Shown one piece after another: positions 9,524 to 22,219 of a DNA stretch of 47,459 bases (its first letter is position 1; each line of letters opens with the position of its first letter). The notes under the pieces were generated by a model. The model had not been told where the DNA came from and made no database searches. It was given only the letters and a program-made list of their open reading frames with translations. The position numbers were made by a program, and so were the translations under genes. Source of the stretch: Candidatus Parvarchaeota archaeon (GTDB lineage: Archaea > Nanobdellota > Nanobdellia > JAFCGN01); NCBI GenBank assembly GCA_017609105.1, contig JAFCEQ010000003.1, forward strand, positions 1 through 47,459, given 5' to 3'.

Positions 9524-11143
9524 ATGAATAATCAACAACCTATTTTTATCTTACCTGAAAGTGCTTTAAGAACTCAAGGAAAGGATGCGCAAAAATCAAA
9601 CATTGCTGCTGCAAGAGCAATAGCAGAAACAATTAGAACAACATTAGGTCCAAAAGGAATGGATAAAATGCTTGTGGATTCAATGGGAGATGTAGTAATA
9701 ACTAATGATGGAGTAACAATTCTTGAAGAAATGGAGATAGAGCACCCAGCAGCAAAAATGATGGTTGAAGTTGCAAAAACTCAGGAAGAAGAAATAGGTG
9801 ATGGAACAACAACTGCTGTTGTCATTGCAGGAGAACTTCTTAAACAAGCAGAAGAATTGCTTGAGCAAAATATTCATCCAAGCGTTCTTGCAAAAGGATA
9901 CAGATTAGCAGGAATTAAATCAAAAGAAGTTCTTGAACAATTAGGTAAGAAAATAGATAAAGAAAATAAAGAAATTCTTGAAAAAATTGCAATCACTGCA
10001 ATGACAGGTAAAAGTGCTGAAGCATCAAGACAACACCTTGCTAAACTAATAGTTGAAGCAATACAACAAGTTATAGAAGAAAAAAAAGACAAGATAATTG
10101 TTGATTTAAACAATATTAAAGTTGAGAAAAGAACAGGAGGAAGCATTGATGACAGTGAATTAGTGCATGGTGTTGTAATAGATAAAGAAAAAGTTCATTC
10201 AAACATGCCTACAAGCATTCCAATGGCAAAAATACTTTTATTAGATTCAGCACTTGAAGTAAAAGAAACAGAAAGTGAGGCGCAAATAAGAATAAACAGT
10301 CCTGAACAATTAAAGAATTTCATTCAACAAGAAGAAGCAATGCTTAAAGAAATGGCAGATGAAATAAAAAAACTTGGGGCAACAGTTGTTTTCTGTCAAA
10401 AAGGCATTGATGACATTGTTCAACACTATTTAGCAAAGCACGGAATACTTGCTGCAAGAAGAGTTAAAAAAAGTGATATGGAACAATTAAGTAAAGCAAC
10501 AGGTGCAAGAATAATCAGTAAATTAAAAGATGCAACAACAGAGGATTTAGGAAATGCAGGATTAGTTGAGGAAAGAAAAATAGCAGGAGAATCAATGATT
10601 TTCATAAGTGAGTGCAAAAATCCGAAAGCAGTAACAATACTAATAAGAGGAAGCACAGAACATGTTATAGATGAAGTTGAAAGAGCTGTTAAAGATGCTT
10701 TAGGAGATTTAAGTGCTGTAATTGAAAGCGGGATGGTCGTGGCAGGAGGCGGAGCTCCTGAAATGGAATTAGCAAAAGAGCTTAACTTATACGCTGAAGG
10801 CATAAGCGGAAGAGAACAATTAGCAGTAAAAGCATTTGCTAAAGCATTGGAAATAATACCAAGAACTCTTGCAGAAAACGCTGGAATTGATCCTTTAAAC
10901 ACGATTGTTGAATTAAAATCAAAACATGATAAAGGAGATAAATGGGCTGGAATAGAAGTAAATAAAGGAAAAACAACAAACATGTGGGAAGAAGGAGTTC
11001 TTGAACCCTTAAAAGTTAAACAACAAGCAATAACAAGTGCTACAGAAGTTGCAATAATGATACTAAGAATTGATGATGTAATAGCAAGCAGGAAAGAAAC
11101 TCCAGTTCAAGGACCTCAAATGCCACCACAAGGAATGTACTAA
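9524..11143 (+). CDS. thsA: Thermosome subunit (group II chaperonin)
   Basis: [54 protein letters not shown] upstream. Confidence 0.97.
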
Positions 11144-11260: not shown

Positions 11261-11623
11261 ATGGCAAAGAATGGCATTGATTTAAGAAATTTAGAAGATA
11301 ATATAAGAAGATTAGATTCTCAAATAGAAGACATTAACAATCAAATGGAAAAAATGATTAGTGTAAACTTAACGCTTCAATCAAAAATCACAGAACTCAT
11401 GATAAAACAAATTGATTTAATAGAAAATTTGAAAAAAATGGTAGACCTCTTAGAAGAAGCAGGACAAGAAGAAGAGGAAAAAACAGATTTTATTACTCCT
11501 TTAAAAGAAACAATGGAAACTCTTGTATCAAAGCAAGATGAAATACTTACTGCATTACAAACAATTGATAAACACATTACAAGAGAGTACACAAGAGAAA
11601 TGCTTACAAAAGCCTTAAAATAG
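11261..11623 (+). CDS. Small coiled-coil protein at the upstream edge of the pilus locus
   Basis: 120 aa heptad-rich: LEDNIRRLDSQIEDINNQMEKMISVNLTLQSKITELM. Confidence 0.7.
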   Translation: MAKNGIDLRNLEDNIRRLDSQIEDINNQMEKMISVNLTLQSKITELMIKQIDLIENLKKMVDLLEEAGQEEEEKTDFITPLKETMETLVSKQDEILTALQTIDKHITREYTREMLTKALK

Positions 11624-11948: not shown

Positions 11949-12425
11949 ATGATGAAAAAAATTAATAAAAAAGGTATCACTCCTGTTATAGCAGTTGTCT
12001 TATTAATGATGATGACTGTTGCTGCTGCAGGTGCTGCTTACTTTTGGATAGTTGGTGTTCAAAGCAGCATACAAAGTGATACAGAAAATTTTATTGGAGA
12101 AGTTCTTGAAAGCCAGGAATTTGAAATAATTGACACTGTATGTGATTATAATGCAACCGATGTAACAAATGGTTCAGTAAGAGTAGTGATTTATAATTCA
12201 GGAAAAACTGCTTATGAAGAAGCGGACACAAGAATCTTTTTATTAAATAGTACAACAGGAACAACAAACCAAAGCATACAAGTTGATCCAACAAGTGTTG
12301 AAAAACAAAAAACATTAGAAATTATTGGTTATGGACTTACAATACCTGCTTCAAGCGAGTGGACTGTGAAACTTTCTATTGGCGGAACAACAAAAGAGAA
12401 ATCATGTGTTGCTGATAACACTTAA
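11949..12425 (+). CDS. Archaeal type IV pilin-like protein
   Basis: KINKKGITPVIAVVLLMMMTVAAAGAAYFW class III signal/pilin N-terminus. Confidence 0.85.
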   Translation: MMKKINKKGITPVIAVVLLMMMTVAAAGAAYFWIVGVQSSIQSDTENFIGEVLESQEFEIIDTVCDYNATDVTNGSVRVVIYNSGKTAYEEADTRIFLLNSTTGTTNQSIQVDPTSVEKQKTLEIIGYGLTIPASSEWTVKLSIGGTTKEKSCVADNT

Positions 12426-12483: not shown

Positions 12484-13512
12484 TTGTTCAAGAATTTCTT
12501 ATATTCTTTTAGAAATCCTTATAATTCTGTGAAAGATTTATTTAAATTAATGAGTAAAAATAATTTCTTTAAATCAAAAAAAATTATTAATAAAAAATGC
12601 CAAACTCAGATAGTTAGCACTGTTTTAATAACAGGGCTTCTTCTTTCAGTAGTTAGTGTGACTTATATTTGGGGCAAACCACTTATTCAAAAAGTAAGTG
12701 ATAATGCAAAAATAGAATCAAGAATAAATAAATTAAATGAAATTGATAAAGCAATAAAAGATGTTGCAGACACTGGTTCGCCAAATACTATAGAAATAAC
12801 TTTAGAAAATGATGAATCTATTTCAATTAATGATGAAGGAGAACTTGTTTACACTACAATAACAGCTGTTCCATTAGTTACAACTTATGATTGGGGTCCC
12901 ATTAATTTTGTTGAAAGCCCTTATACTAATGAGAAATACTCTGTTGACACCACTACTGCAATGTCAAGCGGGTATAAGCAATGCAAACCCACTAATGTTT
13001 ACAAAGGAGAAGTGAATTTAACATATAATTCTGAAGAAACAGAAGAATATAATGTGCTTGTTTTTAATGGAGAGAAAACACCATATTATGATTATGTGTG
13101 TTTAACAAAAGACTTAAATGATTTTGACTGCAACCAAAATTGCGGGTATGTTGATGAACCCATAATTTTAGGAAACACGTCTTTTCAAATATTTTATGTG
13201 AATGAAACAGGAAAAAGAGTGAATATTATTGGAAGAGAAATATTAAAAACAGGCGAGCTTGGAACTGATGACCCAGAAGGCATAATTGTTGGCAGAGCAA
13301 TTTTGAGCAATGAAAAATATTTTGTCACTTTCAAACTCGTTTATAGGCCTTTAAAAGACCCTAACACTGGTAATACGCACCAAATAATTCTTAATTGTGA
13401 AAAAGATTGTTTTGTTGGTCCAGGAGAGCATAATATTTATCTTTCCTTAATAGAAAAACCTCAAGGAACTTTAAGCACCAACGAATATAATATAAATATT
13501 AGAGTCATATAA
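12484..13512 (+). CDS. Pilin-like secreted/membrane protein, Cys-containing ectodomain
   Basis: INKKCQTQIVSTVLITGLLLSVVSVTYIWGKPLIQK pilin-like hydrophobic N-terminus; start uncertain (TTG 12484, GTG 12529 or ATG 12550). Confidence 0.7.
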   Translation: MFKNFLYSFRNPYNSVKDLFKLMSKNNFFKSKKIINKKCQTQIVSTVLITGLLLSVVSVTYIWGKPLIQKVSDNAKIESRINKLNEIDKAIKDVADTGSPNTIEITLENDESISINDEGELVYTTITAVPLVTTYDWGPINFVESPYTNEKYSVDTTTAMSSGYKQCKPTNVYKGEVNLTYNSEETEEYNVLVFNGEKTPYYDYVCLTKDLNDFDCNQNCGYVDEPIILGNTSFQIFYVNETGKRVNIIGREILKTGELGTDDPEGIIVGRAILSNEKYFVTFKLVYRPLKDPNTGNTHQIILNCEKDCFVGPGEHNIYLSLIEKPQGTLSTNEYNINIRVI

Positions 13513-13518
13513 TTTAGT

Positions 13519-15270
13519 ATGGGTTTTAAATTAAAAAATGTTGGAAGAAAATTAGCTATTAACAAAAAAAAGAGGTATTCTAAAGAAAAAATTAAAAACT
13601 TAAAAGAAATTGAAGAAGAAAAAATTGAAAAACCTCAAAAAACATTTGAATCAAAAGAAAAATCAAGAATTCAGGAGAGAGGAGAAATCACTAAAGAATC
13701 TGAATCTGATTTAAAAACAATAGGCATAAGCGTTAATGAAAAAAAATTCACACCCACAACACTTACTCCTGAAAAAATTAAACAGCTTGAAAAAATTAAT
13801 GAAGTCATACCTCTTGTAACAATTGATTATAAAGGAACTCAACAAACACTTGTATACGCTAACATAAGATGGGATCCAACAATTTCTTCTTTAAGATATG
13901 ATTTAAAAGAACCTCCTTTAAGCAAACAAGAAGAACAAATCCTGAAAGAAACAAAAGTCCTTCTTCAAGAAAAATTAAATATTGATTTCAGCAAGATAAG
14001 GCTTGAAAAAGCATTCAAGTTTTTGATTGAAAAATTCTATCAAATTATTGATGAGCTTGGATACAAATTAACAGAAGACCAAAAAATCAGAATGCAATAC
14101 TATATTTACAGAGATTTTATGGGATTAGGGAAAATAGAACCCTTAATGCATGATGATAATATAGAAGATATAAGTTGTGATGGAGTAAATATTCCTATTT
14201 TTGTTTATCACAGAAATCCTTTATACGGGCAAATGAGAACTAACATAATATTTAGAAGCAAAGAGGAGTTAGATTCATTTGTTTTAAGGCTCTCTCAAAA
14301 AGCAGGTAAGGCTTTGACAATAGCAGACCCTTTATTAGAAGGTTCTCTTCCTGACGGTTCTCGTATACAAGCAACCTTAGGAACTGATATTGCGAGAAGA
14401 GGGAGTAATTTCACTATTCGTAAATTCACTAAAAAACCTATGACACCAACAGATTTACTGAACTATAATACGGGTTCTCCTGAAATGTTTGCGTACTTAT
14501 GGATGGCATTAGAAAATAGATTGTCAATTCTGGTTAGCGGAGGAACTGCAACTGGTAAAACAACATTCCTTAATGCATTAAGTTTATTCATTAAACCAGA
14601 ATTTAAGATAATTAGCATAGAAGACACTCCAGAATTAAGATTGCCTCACCCAAATTGGGTGCCTGTTGTCGCAAGAAGAGGGTATGGAAAAGAAGAATAT
14701 GGAGAAGTAAGCATGTTTAATCTTCTTAAAAGCTCATTAAGACAAAGACCTGATTACATTATAGTTGGTGAAGTGCGTGGAGAAGAAGCTTATGTCTTAT
14801 TTCAAGGAATGGCTACAGGACATTCAGGGTTAGGCACGCTTCACGCGGATAGCATTGAAGCTGTTATTGATAGACTTATAACAAAACCAATAAACTTGCC
14901 TAAAGCAATGATTGATAATTTAGACATTATTGTTTTTCTTGAATTAATTAGGAGAGAAGGAAGTTATGTTAGAAGGGTTGCTGAAATTCTTGAAATTGTA
15001 GGTTATGATTATAAAACACAAAAACTTAAAACAAATGTTGCTTTTGTTTGGGATCCAATAACAGATAAGTATATTTCAAAAAATTCTGTTCTTCTTGAAA
15101 AAATAAGAGTTAGAATGTCATATACTGAAGATAAAATAAAACAAGATATGCATAATAGAGTGAGATTATTGAATTGGTTAAAAGAAAATAATGTCAATGA
15201 TTACAAAGAAGTCACAAAATATATTTCAGCATATTATATCAATCCAGAATTAGTAATGAGTCAAATATAA
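13519..15270 (+). CDS. Type II/IV secretion system ATPase (GspE/TadA/ArlI superfamily)
   Basis: Walker A GGTATGKTT, IISIEDTPELRLPHPNWV, LRQRPDYIIVGEVRGEEA, GHSGLGTLHAD. Confidence 0.95.
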   Translation: MGFKLKNVGRKLAINKKKRYSKEKIKNLKEIEEEKIEKPQKTFESKEKSRIQERGEITKESESDLKTIGISVNEKKFTPTTLTPEKIKQLEKINEVIPLVTIDYKGTQQTLVYANIRWDPTISSLRYDLKEPPLSKQEEQILKETKVLLQEKLNIDFSKIRLEKAFKFLIEKFYQIIDELGYKLTEDQKIRMQYYIYRDFMGLGKIEPLMHDDNIEDISCDGVNIPIFVYHRNPLYGQMRTNIIFRSKEELDSFVLRLSQKAGKALTIADPLLEGSLPDGSRIQATLGTDIARRGSNFTIRKFTKKPMTPTDLLNYNTGSPEMFAYLWMALENRLSILVSGGTATGKTTFLNALSLFIKPEFKIISIEDTPELRLPHPNWVPVVARRGYGKEEYGEVSMFNLLKSSLRQRPDYIIVGEVRGEEAYVLFQGMATGHSGLGTLHADSIEAVIDRLITKPINLPKAMIDNLDIIVFLELIRREGSYVRRVAEILEIVGYDYKTQKLKTNVAFVWDPITDKYISKNSVLLEKIRVRMSYTEDKIKQDMHNRVRLLNWLKENNVNDYKEVTKYISAYYINPELVMSQI

Positions 15271-15279
15271 GGTGAAAAA

Positions 15280-16146
15280 ATGGGTTATGCAGAAACAAGT
15301 TACAGGTTATTAAAAAAAGTTTCAAACAAGTACGCTTACTTAATAGAGGACTTGAAAGAAGATTTGAAACAAGCAAACCTGAATTATACTATAGAAGAAT
15401 ATTTTTCAATGATGGTGTTCACAACCTTGGTATTATTAATAAGTGTTTTTTGCATTGGTGGCTTCATATTTTTCTTTGTAATGAGAAGCATAATAATTGC
15501 TTTTATTGGAGGTTTTCTTCTTTCCTTATTTATTACAATAATAACTATTGTAGCTTTCATTATATATCCTTCTCAATTAATGGACACAAGAAGAAAAAAA
15601 ATAGAAAATAATTTGTATTTTGCAGCAAATTACATGTCTACAATAAGCAGTAGTGGGTTGCCTGCTCAAAAAATATTTAAAGTAATGGGAAATTTTAGCG
15701 AATTTGGAGAAATTGCAAAAATATGCAGGAGAATTACAAGAGACATAGAAGTCTTTGGAATGAACGTAAATGAAGCTATTGAAAAAGTTGTTCAATTAAG
15801 TCCTTCAAAAAAATTAAACGAATTGCTTTGGGGAATGAGAGGTATCATCTTAGGAGGCGGGGATTTAAGCACTTATTTAAAAGAGAAATCTAAAAGTTTA
15901 TTAAATGATTATAGAAGGCTTTTAGAAGAATTTACTAGAAGCATTTCCCTTTATTTAGAAATTTATATTACACTTATCATGGTTGGAACTGTTTTTACAT
16001 TAGTTCTTACAACAATCATGAGCTTGCTTGGAGGGTATGTTAAACAACTCCAATTAGTTCAAATGATAATAGTAACAATAGGACTTCCGTTCATATCTGC
16101 CGTGTTTGTCCTCATGCTTAAAACAATAAATCCAACAGAAGCGTAA
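15280..16146 (+). CDS. Pilus platform membrane protein, TadC/GspF family
   Basis: NNLYFAANYMSTISSSGLPAQKIFKVM...GMNVNEAIEKV...LLWGMRGIILGGGDLSTYLKEKS; multiple TM segments. Confidence 0.85.
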   Translation: MGYAETSYRLLKKVSNKYAYLIEDLKEDLKQANLNYTIEEYFSMMVFTTLVLLISVFCIGGFIFFFVMRSIIIAFIGGFLLSLFITIITIVAFIIYPSQLMDTRRKKIENNLYFAANYMSTISSSGLPAQKIFKVMGNFSEFGEIAKICRRITRDIEVFGMNVNEAIEKVVQLSPSKKLNELLWGMRGIILGGGDLSTYLKEKSKSLLNDYRRLLEEFTRSISLYLEIYITLIMVGTVFTLVLTTIMSLLGGYVKQLQLVQMIIVTIGLPFISAVFVLMLKTINPTEA

Positions 16147-16157
16147 GGTGATTAAAA

Positions 16158-17267
16158 ATAGAAAAAAAGAAAGTAATCATAATTTCAGTTATTACAGGAA
16201 TTATTGTATTTTTTTTAAGTTATGCTCTTTCAAGATTTACTTTGTCCGGCCTTCTTTATGGCATAGTATTCGGGTTAATAACAACTACTTTTCCTTACCT
16301 TATATTAGATTATCTTAGAGCAAAAAAAATAAGAGCATTAGAATTACAGTTTCCTGAATTCTTAAGAAATTTAGCAGAAAGCGTTAAAGCAGGAATGACT
16401 TTAACAAAAGCTATAGAAAACGCTGCAAAAACAGATTTTGGAGAACTAACACCGCACGTAAAAAAACTTCATAATCTGCTAAGTTGGGGCACGCCATTAC
16501 CTGAAGCAATAAATGTATTTAAAAAAGAAACAAAAGAATCAAAACACATACAAAGAGGGCTTTTAATAATTATGGAAGCATATTATTTCGGAGGGAATGT
16601 AGCGGAAATAATGGGTTCTGTTGCTGAAAGCACAAACAAAATAATCAATGTTGAAAAAGATAGAAAATCAATAATGGCTCAACAAACAAGTGTAATGTAT
16701 ATTGTTCAATTCATTTTTGTTGCAATCTTAATCGGGCTTTTTGTAGTATTAATTCCATTAGTTACTACTGAATATGGTGAAGAAGGAATTTCAGGGTTTT
16801 TAAGCAGAGAAAACTTGCCTTCTGTTAATTATTTTAGAACCTTGTTTTTCTTAACAATAGTCATACAATCAATAGCAAATGGAATCGTAGCAGGAGAAAC
16901 ACAAGAAGGAAGACTCAGTGCAGGCATTAAACACTCAGGGATTATGCTTACCATTGGATTACTCGCATACCTTATTTTCATTTACCCAATTAATTATTCA
17001 CTGAATGTAAGTCTTTCAAAAAACATTGTTTATCCTTCTGAAACCCTGGAGTTAATAGGACATTTTGAGAAAGAAGGAACAAAAGTTCAAGGAGTTATTG
17101 TGAATATAACTCTTAATGGAAAAAGCATTCAAAGCATAACAGATTCTAAAGGGGATTTCAGAGTAGATTTAAAAGCTCCTTCAAGAATTGGAGATTATAA
17201 TGTTTTGGTGGAGATTAAATATGAAAACAAGAAAATTATTCAAGAAGCAACACTCCAAGTCAGATAA
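16158..17267 (+). CDS. Second TadC/GspF-family platform protein with C-terminal beta-sandwich-like domain; probable AUA start
   Basis: FPEFLRNLAESVKAGMTLTKAIENAA; frame is open upstream of TTG 16242 and encodes IEKKKVIIISVITGIIVFFLSYALSRF; GGTGA at 16147-16151, 6-nt spacer, ATA at 16158. Confidence 0.8.
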   Translation: MEKKKVIIISVITGIIVFFLSYALSRFTLSGLLYGIVFGLITTTFPYLILDYLRAKKIRALELQFPEFLRNLAESVKAGMTLTKAIENAAKTDFGELTPHVKKLHNLLSWGTPLPEAINVFKKETKESKHIQRGLLIIMEAYYFGGNVAEIMGSVAESTNKIINVEKDRKSIMAQQTSVMYIVQFIFVAILIGLFVVLIPLVTTEYGEEGISGFLSRENLPSVNYFRTLFFLTIVIQSIANGIVAGETQEGRLSAGIKHSGIMLTIGLLAYLIFIYPINYSLNVSLSKNIVYPSETLELIGHFEKEGTKVQGVIVNITLNGKSIQSITDSKGDFRVDLKAPSRIGDYNVLVEIKYENKKIIQEATLQVR

Positions 17268-18021
17268 AGCACAATTAGATATTGATTTATTATTAGCTTA
17301 TATTGTCTTTATTGCATTTATTGTATTCATAATTCGGTTTTCAATAAATCTTTTAACACCATACACTAATACTATTGATTTTTCAATACATCAAAGAAAT
17401 GCTTTAAAAGTTTATCACAATAGTATTCCTTCAGTGTTTGATTATAATGATTTATACAAATTATGTAATGTTAATGCAACTGAATTAAATGGTGTTAAAG
17501 TTATTTATAACATAAAAGGGGTTAAACTCCCTGCATGGGATGATTTAATTGAATACCCTAATAACACTGATGGAAAAATAATAATTTTAAGAAAAAATGA
17601 GAATCTTGAAATATTATTCGGAAGCAACTCAACAGAATACAATACAACATTAATAATGGTTTTCCCGCAATACTCTAATGTTTTTATTGAAAATGATTCA
17701 TTAGAAACTCAGGACTTAATATCCTTAGAAAAAGATTCATTTCAAAATGATGTTATTACAATAAATAGTAATGTTAAATCAAATGATTTAGACAAAGTTA
17801 TGATAAAAACAGATTCTAAAACAAGCCCTTTTTTTGTGTTTATTAGTGGAATATATGGGATTAATCATAATAGGGTTTTTGTTGGAAGCGCGAGCATTAA
17901 TGGTTCTTGCAGTTCAGGAGGAAGCGGGTATAAACAAGAATTATATGGTAATGCGTTAATGAATGTGAATGGAAGCGATACTATTGTGGAATTAACTCAA
18001 AAAACATGGTGGATTTCATGA
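17221..18021 (+). CDS. Pilin-like protein
   Basis: SKSDKAQLDIDLLLAYIVFIAFIVFIIRF; ATG 17221 preferred over TTG 17188. Confidence 0.7.
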   Translation: MKTRKLFKKQHSKSDKAQLDIDLLLAYIVFIAFIVFIIRFSINLLTPYTNTIDFSIHQRNALKVYHNSIPSVFDYNDLYKLCNVNATELNGVKVIYNIKGVKLPAWDDLIEYPNNTDGKIIILRKNENLEILFGSNSTEYNTTLIMVFPQYSNVFIENDSLETQDLISLEKDSFQNDVITINSNVKSNDLDKVMIKTDSKTSPFFVFISGIYGINHNRVFVGSASINGSCSSGGSGYKQELYGNALMNVNGSDTIVELTQKTWWIS

Positions 18022-19103
18022 AAGAAAAAATAAAGAATAAAAAAGGATTCATAAGATTGTTAGAAGTGGTTGTAGCCTCAATGCTGCTTTTAGGATTGCT
18101 TAATTGGATGTCAGAAGAAGTGTATACTCCAAGTTTTGAATTAAAAACAAATCCTATTTACAAAGGGATTTCAATAATTGATTTAATGCATAATAGCAGG
18201 GTTTTAGAAACCTTATTAGAAAATTATGACTTACAAAGCATTGACTCTGAAATAACTTATCTTCTTCCAGTAAGAACTCCTCATAAAATTGAGGTAACAT
18301 ATGCTTCAGAATTTAAAATAAAAGAATTAAATGGAGAAAACTTAGAGAAAAACTATGGTATAACTTATAATTTTCCTACAAGCGTAGATAAAAATTCTAT
18401 TTTTTTAAGTGAAGAAACAAAACCCTTAGAAAGAAATGTTTTGTGGAATTCTTATGAAATAATTTTTTCAATAAGAAATAATAGAACAAGTAATTTAGTT
18501 AAAGAAAACATAACATTACTAAATATTCCAATAATAATTGATAATGGAAACATTCTTAGCAATGATAGTTTCGCGTTTTTCATAAAAAATGAGGAAGTGC
18601 CAATGAGTGTTGATAATCTAAAATCTTTAAACGGTAAATGGAATAATGTAAGTGCAAACATAACTTTTCAAATCCCGTTCTTAAAAGCAGGAGAATCAGT
18701 ATTATCTTACTTGTTTTATTCAGATAATACAACAATTTTCAATAATTCACAAAATTATCAAGAATTAACAAATAAGAAAAATGAAAATTATGTAAAAATA
18801 TTGAAGTTAACAAGCAAAAAAAGTTCAAGAGGAGATGTTTTATTTAAAACTAAATTAAATTCTTATGAAGAAAAGAAAATACTTCTTCAATACTCTTTGA
18901 ATACAAAAAAAAGCAATACTTACAGTAATATAATAACAATTAATAATACTGGAGTGAGAATAAATTTAACAGAAAACAATGTTAAAGAAGGAACACTCCC
19001 TCTTTACACTTCTTTGCCTACAACAACAACGTATAGTATTTCAAGAATAATTCCTTTAAAACAAAATTTAGCTGAAATAAAAATTTATTTGTGGTATATA
19101 TGA
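18018..19103 (+). CDS. Pilin-like protein with large ectodomain
   Basis: IKNKKGFIRLLEVVVASMLLLGLLNW; ATGA overlap with upstream stop; many N-X-S/T sequons. Confidence 0.75.
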   Translation: MKEKIKNKKGFIRLLEVVVASMLLLGLLNWMSEEVYTPSFELKTNPIYKGISIIDLMHNSRVLETLLENYDLQSIDSEITYLLPVRTPHKIEVTYASEFKIKELNGENLEKNYGITYNFPTSVDKNSIFLSEETKPLERNVLWNSYEIIFSIRNNRTSNLVKENITLLNIPIIIDNGNILSNDSFAFFIKNEEVPMSVDNLKSLNGKWNNVSANITFQIPFLKAGESVLSYLFYSDNTTIFNNSQNYQELTNKKNENYVKILKLTSKKSSRGDVLFKTKLNSYEEKKILLQYSLNTKKSNTYSNIITINNTGVRINLTENNVKEGTLPLYTSLPTTTTYSISRIIPLKQNLAEIKIYLWYI

Positions 19104-22100
19104 AAAATATTTTTTATAAAAACAAAATCAAAAAAATAAACAAGAAATCGCAATTTTTTATTATCTCCGCGGTTTTTATAGCATTAGCTCTCACAACTAT
19201 AATAACCTATCTTTCCATGCCAAATGAACTTAGTTTTCAATCTTTTAACAGCGAACAAAGTTTAATGAGTAGAACACAAGCACTTGGGGATTCCATAATC
19301 AGTGTAATGGACAACATATATGATTCTTGGTGGGATCCTCTTTTAACTCAAAGAATAAAAATTGTTTTAAAAGAAGAGAATAACATAGAATTCAATTCTT
19401 TTACTCAAAGAATAATAACTAATTTTCCAGAAGATACTGATGAAGAATCAATAAGAGTTATTGAGGATAATAAAGAAATCCCTTTTAGTTTGATTTGGTT
19501 AGATTTAAGGAATAAAATTGCTGAAATAAGTTTTCAAACAAGCATAAGCAGAGGAGGGAAAAAAGAAATTTTTGTTTATTTTAGTAAGAAAACAGATTCA
19601 AAACATATTGAAAGCCCTTCTTATGATTCTAAAATAAATGTGATTGAAAACAGCACAGACATAATTATTAATACAAACCATTATGAAGCAAAACTTAATA
19701 AAACAAGAGGAGGAATGCTTTATTATCTTTCTCCAAAAAATTATGATAATAATCTCATAATAAATAATGAAGATTACGGGGTTCAAAGCATTTTTGAATG
19801 TAACAACACTGAATACAAGCAATCAAGTGAATCCAATCCTACAATAAACATATTTAATAACGGGCCTGTTATGGTAAACATACGGGTGAGCGGGGAACAC
19901 GGAATTGCTCCTGGAAGAGAATTTTATACTCAGGATTATTATTTTTATCCAGATACAATAAGGATTAAAACAAATGTGCGTTGGGCAGAAAACATTAATT
20001 GCGAAGCGAGTGAAGATAATTTTATTTTTGATAGAATAAGTTTTAATGGAAGCACTTTGCTTGGAGGACAATTGTATTACAAGGATAATAACACAAACTT
20101 ATTTGAGAATTATGATTATGTTGAAGACAGGCCTGGAGATTGGATTGATTATTATCATGAAAAACAAGGAGTAGGCATTATTTTAATGAATAAAACAGGT
20201 TATTTTTCTTTTTACAGGAACTCCACGAGTTCTGTGAAATTCTCTGACTTAATAGGAATGAATAACACTAAATTCTCTCCTTCAAGCATAGAATATGAAT
20301 ATGTTTTATACCCTCATAGAGGACAATGGGAGAAAACAAGGGATTACAACATTCTTTATAATAAATCACAGATAATAGAAAACGAGAGTTTCGTTGATTT
20401 CTTTAAGAGTAAGGAGAACATGATTAAAAACTCTTTCAGTCAAAAAGGTTTTTCCACATACTTAAGCACGAGCATAAGCGAGGTTGAACAAAGCTTTAAT
20501 CATGATATTACTTGGTATAAAGGGGATTTCACGCCAAACAGTAGGAAGGTCTTCAAAGTTTATTCAAAGCATCAAGTGCAAAATTTTCCAATAAAAATAA
20601 GCAGTAATCTTCCTAAAGGTTTTGATGCTAACAGCTTGCTTTTAAGTGATAAAAGCGGAAAAAAAATAACAACACAAATAATAACAGATGGTATTATTGC
20701 AAATTATTCTGAATTCAATGTTTACTGTCAAAACCCTGATAGCATAGATTACAATAATTACACTTATTACTTATTTAATCATGATGGAAGAAATTTCACT
20801 ATTGGAATTGATTTAGAAGAGACCTCTGACTTTAATGTATCAATATACTACCCAAATAAAAGCACAATAATAAATAAAGACAATATTAATACTGACAAGA
20901 TTTATGAAATTCAAAGCCAAAATTATAAAGGATTTTATAAAGTAGTGATAAGCAAAAAAAATGATAATAAATATTTTAGAATAAACTCTTCTCTTCCTTA
21001 TTTAATCCTTTATAATAATAGGATAAGATGCAAATCAGGGGATAGCGTAAAAAAAATATTCTTTCATGTTCCTGAAAACATAAAAAACATAAAAATTAAT
21101 GTGAGTGCTTATGATAGCGGAGCAAGAATTAAAATAAAAGATTTAGATGGAAATATTCTTGCTGAAAATAATACTATTTACGCTAATACAAAATATTCTT
21201 TTGAAATTCCAATAAAAGAATATGCTTACGGAAAAACATATTATTTAGAATTTGAAACAAGCGGAAGCGTTGAAATAATATTTGATGATTCAATGCATTC
21301 TTCAAAAAGCACGAATAAGGATTATTATATTGATTATGACAAGCCAAAAATAAATTTACTCTTCTTTGATTCCTTAATTGGAAGCAAGAAATACGGGATT
21401 TATTATAATGTGAATACTTCAGAGGAAGAGCATGAAATCATGGAACCAATAAGTTTTGAAAGTGATTTAGTTGTTAATGAAACAAAGAAGATAGTTAATA
21501 ATAGTTATTTTTCATGGGATTTGAAAAATAATGTTTTCACTTATAGGAATAGCACTAATTTTTTTCAAACAACGGATAAATGGCTTACAGATTTTGGGAA
21601 TTCATCATGGATTGAGAGCGCGGCATCAACAAGTTTAAACAATATTGAATTCATTGAAAAAGGACCTGTAAGAGTAAGAATAAAAGCAACTTCAAGCACA
21701 ACGCCAAAAGTAATTTATTATTTTGATATTTATGCTCATCAAAAATTCATAAAAACAACTATTATTCCAGAAACTCTTTCTGAAAATGATTTAACAATAG
21801 GGCCTTTCTGGAATTTAAATAATACTGAAACAAGGATTTACACTAATTATGATAATGGAGTAGAAACTTTTTCTTCAGAAAATCTTACTGATAAGAGTTT
21901 TCTTGCAGGAAAAACATTTAATTGGTTTGGGAAAAGAAGCAATAATATTTTAGCATCAATAATTGCTCAAAGCTCAAGCATTTATCCAAGCAATAAAAGT
22001 TTTTACGCAAACAATAATTTATTAACAATTGCTCTTCCTGCAAACCAAAATAATACTATTTATTTTTTCATAGATGATTATAGTAATACAACTCAATGGG

Positions 22101-22219
22101 ATAATGTAAAGTATTTAAGAAATGTTTTAATAAGCCCTCCAAAAACAAGCACTTTCTTATTTAAAACAATGATAAATGGGGATAGTAAGAACATTAAATT
22201 CAAATCAGAGTATTATTAA
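19100..22219 (+). CDS. Giant pilin-like/surface protein with duplicated beta-rich ectodomain
   Basis: INKKSQFFIISAVFIALALTTIITYL N-terminus then ~1000 aa ectodomain; ATGA overlap with upstream stop; repeated NGPVMVNIRVSG / KGPVRVRIKATS segments. Confidence 0.8.
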   Translation: MKNIFYKNKIKKINKKSQFFIISAVFIALALTTIITYLSMPNELSFQSFNSEQSLMSRTQALGDSIISVMDNIYDSWWDPLLTQRIKIVLKEENNIEFNSFTQRIITNFPEDTDEESIRVIEDNKEIPFSLIWLDLRNKIAEISFQTSISRGGKKEIFVYFSKKTDSKHIESPSYDSKINVIENSTDIIINTNHYEAKLNKTRGGMLYYLSPKNYDNNLIINNEDYGVQSIFECNNTEYKQSSESNPTINIFNNGPVMVNIRVSGEHGIAPGREFYTQDYYFYPDTIRIKTNVRWAENINCEASEDNFIFDRISFNGSTLLGGQLYYKDNNTNLFENYDYVEDRPGDWIDYYHEKQGVGIILMNKTGYFSFYRNSTSSVKFSDLIGMNNTKFSPSSIEYEYVLYPHRGQWEKTRDYNILYNKSQIIENESFVDFFKSKENMIKNSFSQKGFSTYLSTSISEVEQSFNHDITWYKGDFTPNSRKVFKVYSKHQVQNFPIKISSNLPKGFDANSLLLSDKSGKKITTQIITDGIIANYSEFNVYCQNPDSIDYNNYTYYLFNHDGRNFTIGIDLEETSDFNVSIYYPNKSTIINKDNINTDKIYEIQSQNYKGFYKVVISKKNDNKYFRINSSLPYLILYNNRIRCKSGDSVKKIFFHVPENIKNIKINVSAYDSGARIKIKDLDGNILAENNTIYANTKYSFEIPIKEYAYGKTYYLEFETSGSVEIIFDDSMHSSKSTNKDYYIDYDKPKINLLFFDSLIGSKKYGIYYNVNTSEEEHEIMEPISFESDLVVNETKKIVNNSYFSWDLKNNVFTYRNSTNFFQTTDKWLTDFGNSSWIESAASTSLNNIEFIEKGPVRVRIKATSSTTPKVIYYFDIYAHQKFIKTTIIPETLSENDLTIGPFWNLNNTETRIYTNYDNGVETFSSENLTDKSFLAGKTFNWFGKRSNNILASIIAQSSSIYPSNKSFYANNNLLTIALPANQNNTIYFFIDDYSNTTQWDNVKYLRNVLISPPKTSTFLFKTMINGDSKNIKFKSEYY

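Follow-up and report, generated by a model that had tools for sequence, protein, structure and literature searches.

What is a protein of about 1,040 residues doing at the end of an archaeal type IV pilus operon? The window analyzed here, contig C12 in its full 47.5-kb length, comes from a 688-kb Candidatus Parvarchaeota genome (G000, 92% complete), that of a tiny DPANN archaeon which probably depends on a host. The window holds an operon in the order thermosome, coiled-coil-like protein, pilin, minor pilin, FlaI/CpaF-like ATPase, two TadC-like proteins, two pilin-like proteins and, as the last gene, the giant (Table 1). Like a type IV pilin, the giant is encoded alongside a pilus ATPase and a TadC-like platform, and the same operon order recurs in about a dozen genomes from several families. 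We read the giant as a modular minor pilin that would be displayed at the pilus tip, where it would act as an adhesin for a putative ligand; we put the probability of this reading at roughly two in three.

Table 1. Features of the pilus operon and of the giant pilin-like protein, in window coordinates.
Feature	Position	Strand	Basis or detail
Thermosome subunit, operon flank, conserved neighbor	9524–11143	+	Family search, neighborhood comparison
Short coiled-coil-like protein, positional counterpart of the Locus 1 coiled-coil protein	11261–11623	+	Locus 1 as given in the available part of its description
Pilin	11949–12425	+	TIGR02537 archaellin/pilin N-terminal domain, above cut-off
Minor pilin-like protein	12484–13512	+	N terminus KKCQTQIVST, conserved operon position
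FlaI/CpaF-like pilus ATPase	13519–15270	+	T2SSE 3.5e-36; archaellum motor model 7e-127, below its cut-off
TadC/FlaJ-like membrane protein 1	15280–16146	+	T2SSF 5e-14
TadC/FlaJ-like membrane protein 2	16242–17267	+	T2SSF 2.1e-17
g277, pilin-like (KA/QLDID)	17221–18021	+	Weak DUF7287 similarity
g365, pilin-like (KKG/FIRLLE), D-module similarity	18018–19103	+	hhalign
Giant pilin-like CDS	19100–22219	+	1039 aa from ATG 19100; 1042 aa from GTG 19091
Leader, KKS/QFF motif (Gln21 at 19151), hydrophobic helix with invariant Pro44 (19220–19222), second helical half	19100–19327	+	Motif and spacing, model, small pilins
D1, DUF2341-like beta module (residues 86–165)	19346–19585	+	Model pLDDT ~80; hhalign to small pilins, g365 and DUF2341
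First supersandwich-like region (residues 183–412)	19637–20326	+	Model, fold search, conservation
Repeat segment 1 of the preliminary description (residues 256–298)	19856–19984	+	Profile comparison
Predicted helical linker (residues 414–478), low confidence	20330–20524	+	Structure model
Middle beta region (residues 495–745)	20573–21325	+	Profile comparison, model; 655–745 low confidence
Second supersandwich-like region (residues 790–1015)	21458–22135	+	Separate model of 742–1042 and its fold search
Repeat segment 2 of the preliminary description (residues 856–894)	21656–21772	+	Profile comparison
C-terminal strands like the last strand of the small pilins	22151–22216	+	hhalign P = 0.001

The reading frame of the giant runs from 19091 to 22219 on the forward strand, and re-reading it returned the same gene coordinates as the preliminary description had given. 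Its ATG shares the tetranucleotide ATGA with the TGA stop of the upstream gene (19101–19103), and the ATG of g365 at 18018 overlaps the g277 stop in the same way, which points to apparent translational coupling of these last genes. By gene content alone, the operon resembles DPANN Locus 1, for which the available part of the description lists GroEL, a coiled-coil protein, FlaF, PilA, CpaF and TadC (PMC11291902): thermosome/GroEL, coiled-coil protein, pilins, CpaF-like ATPase and TadC are found in both, whereas that part of the description mentions no giant terminal gene.

Other features of the pilus genes deserve mention. At its C terminus, the second TadC-like protein (16242–17267) is extended by ~70 residues that weakly resemble beta-sandwich domains (CarboxypepD_reg, Ca_tandemer). 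Two more FlaI paralogues are encoded in G000, on contigs C32 and C49. Elsewhere, FlaI/CpaF frames extend to ~990 to 1210 aa (G010, L088:11551-14526; G022:C49; G048:C112; G031:C12; G004:C2); similarity within them stops near query residue 370 or 433 and, in the G010 frame, picks up again ~440 residues on. These frames look as inteins in conserved motifs would look.

The giant had been described as pilin anchored. Its N terminus reads KKSQFF followed by a hydrophobic, predicted-helical stretch, and the structure model places helices, at low confidence, at residues 3 to 42 and 49 to 79. All 15 of 15 homologues share [KR]-[GSA]-Q-F-[FY] at the N terminus with a Pro exactly 23 residues past the Gln. 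The KSQF of the giant does not fit the published FlaFind motif for class III signals, [KRDE][GA][ALIFQMVED][ILMVTAS]; the KGQI of a small homologue in G010 does. The leaders of some homologues are only 2 to 5 residues long; cleavage of leaders of 3 and 4 residues has been reported for PibD (PMC4307647). A search of G000 for a prepilin peptidase (PF01478) found none. Its congener G001, the closest relative in the genome set, has one, as do 51 of the 53 relatives searched, suggesting that the missing gene reflects an assembly gap.

Homologues of the giant were found in 16 of the 378 genomes of the class; in a sample of the phylum they were present in 12 of 371 genomes, every one from this same class. 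The codon pattern of the N-terminal motif matched the genome collection at 19 places, of which 8 proved to be true homologues, and a scan of the genome contigs with the giant as a single protein gave no matches. The ATPase tree took in 13 giant-bearing operons (the G117 ATPase was left out) and placed all 13 giants on one side of a branch supported at 100/99 and the small forms on the other; whether the giant form was gained or lost on this branch depends on the root. In the sister ATPase lineage, a pilin of normal size (113 to 242 aa) with a KKxQFF-type start lies at or near the same operon end in 5 of 5 operons (G046, G030, G038, G010 and G020, the last with one gene between the small pilin and the operon end), and G117 has a similar protein of 273 aa. 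The small forms of G020 and G038 consist of the helix and a short C-terminal domain, nothing more; those of G046, G010 and G117 carry an additional beta module. Neither a giant nor a small form is present near the ATPase in G007, G019, G036 and G044, members of another lineage of the tree.

The small pilins match the giant at both ends. In hhalign comparisons, their profile aligned with the helix and first beta module (D1) of the giant at P = 6e-10 and their last strand with its C terminus at P = 0.001 over 19 columns, reaching both C termini, although P-values of single profile comparisons, here and below, are approximate. Thus, the giant has the appearance of a pilin that took up further domains between the helix and the final strand, that is, a pilin module with extra modules. 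Its position in the operon, the conserved N-terminal motif and the pilin-sized homologues encoded at or near this end of the operon all support pilin anchoring.

Pfam, NCBIfam and PDB sequence searches with the giant and its family returned nothing meaningful; UNC-93 and similar weak matches were taken as chance. The Pfam model of DUF2341 (PF10102) has no match in the giant, in its family or in the whole genome. Compared with a five-row DUF2341 set, the D module gave P = 0.003 for the giant, 1.6e-4 for the small pilins and 2.1e-4 for g365, which also has this module in common with the giant (hhalign P = 4e-5 and 8e-4). For the DUF2341-like N-terminal module that had been proposed, this amounts to a weak, end-to-end profile similarity below Pfam detection. 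In the middle beta region, a weak D-module-like stretch precedes a beta-sandwich best defined at residues 557 to 650. The ectodomain of ~960 residues is mostly beta, as described, but "almost entirely" was slightly too strong: helices are predicted at about residues 414 to 478 and at 1004 to 1014. Cys237 and Cys304 of the first supersandwich region are conserved in the window's clade and could form a disulfide.

We compared the profiles of residues 60 to 480 and 700 to 1042. They yielded a single colinear match of 142 columns (score, 32.6; P = 0.002) that pairs exactly the two segments from which an internal duplication had been deduced, residues 256 to 298 and 856 to 894. None of 120 column shuffles and none of 120 block shuffles reached this score, and the reversed control scored 18.4. 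Structure was predicted from shallow alignments (9 and 4 rows). The full-length AlphaFold model (mean pLDDT, 58; pTM, 0.34) is confident only in pieces; that of the C-terminal piece, residues 742 to 1042, has a mean pLDDT of 60 and a pTM of 0.66. With the full model, Foldseek retrieved GH38 beta domains (E = 1.7e-7), PL26, GalM (TM 0.49 by target) and YidC; with the C-terminal piece alone, it retrieved GH38 (7e-5), YidC and mutarotases. The TM-scores of these fold matches are at or below about 0.5, and the Foldseek output comes without query ranges. Because the full model gives GalM and YidC better scores than the C-terminal piece does, the first half is probably a supersandwich as well. Together with the profile comparison, the fold search of these moderate-quality models supports the duplicated beta-sandwich of mutarotase/polysaccharide-lyase supersandwich type that had been suggested. 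The giant would thus resemble the beta-supersandwich superfamily (GH38 beta domain, galactose mutarotase, PL26, YidC periplasmic domain) in fold, whereas it lacks sequence similarity to any PDB chain. Against viral models, the fold search turned up beta-rich proteins, in long matches of low TM-score.

Some relatives are arranged differently. In G006 (L020:1-7512 [-] and L030:17421-18461 [-]), the homologue is shorter, at 793 aa. An ORF of >2,500 aa comes after it, overlapping it by ~16 bases; this ORF opens with a signal-like sequence of its own and contains DUF2341, LamG and repeats. The end of another contig carries the same repeat sequence together with a C-terminal stretch that resembles the second supersandwich. 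In this genome, the giant may be split over two genes. In G008 (L025:1-2893 [-]), the frame of the homologue ends after ~544 aa, at a second D-like module; the new ORF that follows opens with a signal-like sequence of its own and runs off the contig. The congener G001 encodes a second large surface ORF (L047, G001:C17:11411-11791; frame, 1507 aa). This ORF contains an F5/8 type C domain and, over a short stretch, matches the giant profile close to where the second supersandwich begins.

The composition of the giant was also as first described, rich in Asn and in N-X-S/T sequons. Asn makes up 10.8% of its residues versus 3 to 6% in cytosolic neighbors, and it has 28 sequons versus 18.7 in shuffles (P = 0.010), an enrichment that is real but modest. 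The genome encodes STT3, and together these features are consistent with a glycosylated surface protein.

How might such a protein work? The helix, cleaved by prepilin peptidase, would dock the giant on the pilus as in an ordinary pilin. Between this helix and the last pilin strand, evolution would have inserted a series of beta domains: first a DUF2341-like module, next a supersandwich, then further beta domains and finally another supersandwich. Because the shaft could hardly accommodate an ectodomain of ~960 residues, the giant would be placed at the tip, where it would bind a host-cell or surface ligand, perhaps a glycan, and the pilus would in this way attach the cell. The combination of a pilin helix with so large an ectodomain, and the analogy to PilB and to DUF2341 adhesins, make a tip-displayed adhesin the best reading and, by that analogy, the most likely role. 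Bacterial modular pilins, among them the adhesin PilB of S. sanguinis, join a small pilin module to a bulky extra module that points outward, probably at the tip (PMC8179133). The giant would share this plan but is archaeal, has no detectable sequence relation to them and, at ~1040 aa, exceeds the extreme case of that survey, 860 residues (PMC8179133); its supersandwich and DUF2341-like modules also differ and seem to be inserted between helix and last strand. PilY1-like tip adhesins have also been proposed in archaea, namely the DUF2341 proteins encoded in pilus loci (PMC4858521). The giant, too, is a large surface protein in a pilus locus, and its D1 module and g365 are weakly DUF2341-like. 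Unlike those proteins, it has its chain of domains fused to a pilin helix, and its other domains differ.

A glycan-binding or glycan-cleaving role had been raised for the giant, and the best fold matches are indeed domains of carbohydrate-active enzymes, as a pilus-displayed surface enzyme acting on glycans, lyase or glycosidase-like, would have. The check for catalytic residues gave no support to cleavage: within the supersandwich regions, not a single acidic residue or His is conserved family-wide, and the conserved positions there are mostly Tyr, Lys and Gly, with Trp and Cys added within the window's clade. This pattern favors binding or spacing over catalysis. In GH38 enzymes, moreover, the catalytic site sits in another domain, and YidC, which is not an enzyme, scores equally. 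We therefore rejected the surface-enzyme reading, which we consider highly improbable.

Somewhat less improbable, though still very unlikely, is a pilus protein that captures DNA in natural transformation instead of attaching the cell. A screen for transformation defects recovered transposon insertions in MMJJ_08210, a DUF2341 gene in the pilus operon of M. maripaludis; that defect may reflect nothing but loss of the pilus, and no DNA-binding feature came to notice in the giant. We give more weight, while still judging it unlikely, to a helix that stays uncleaved as a membrane anchor, which would make the giant an accessory of the pilus base or envelope and no filament subunit. The departure from the FlaFind motif, the very large size of the protein and the failure to find a prepilin peptidase in G000 would all suit such an anchor. 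An invariant Gln after [KR][GSA], the fixed spacing of the Pro and clear kinship with pilin-sized proteins from at or near the same operon end argue instead for a pilin, and we retain the tip-displayed modular pilin as the preferred reading.

One might speculate further, and only tentatively, that one DPANN lineage, through changes on a single branch, remodeled its terminal minor pilin into a giant organ for recognizing hosts, and that in some members, such as G006, the second half came to reside on a separate secreted protein of >2,500 residues, making a two-chain tip.

Little is known of how DPANN archaea recognize and grip their hosts, with pilus loci as leading candidates. The giant offers a specific candidate adhesin with defined domains. 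It would extend the modular-pilin idea to archaea, at a size above that in the bacterial survey, and the small and giant forms in sister lineages are available for comparison.
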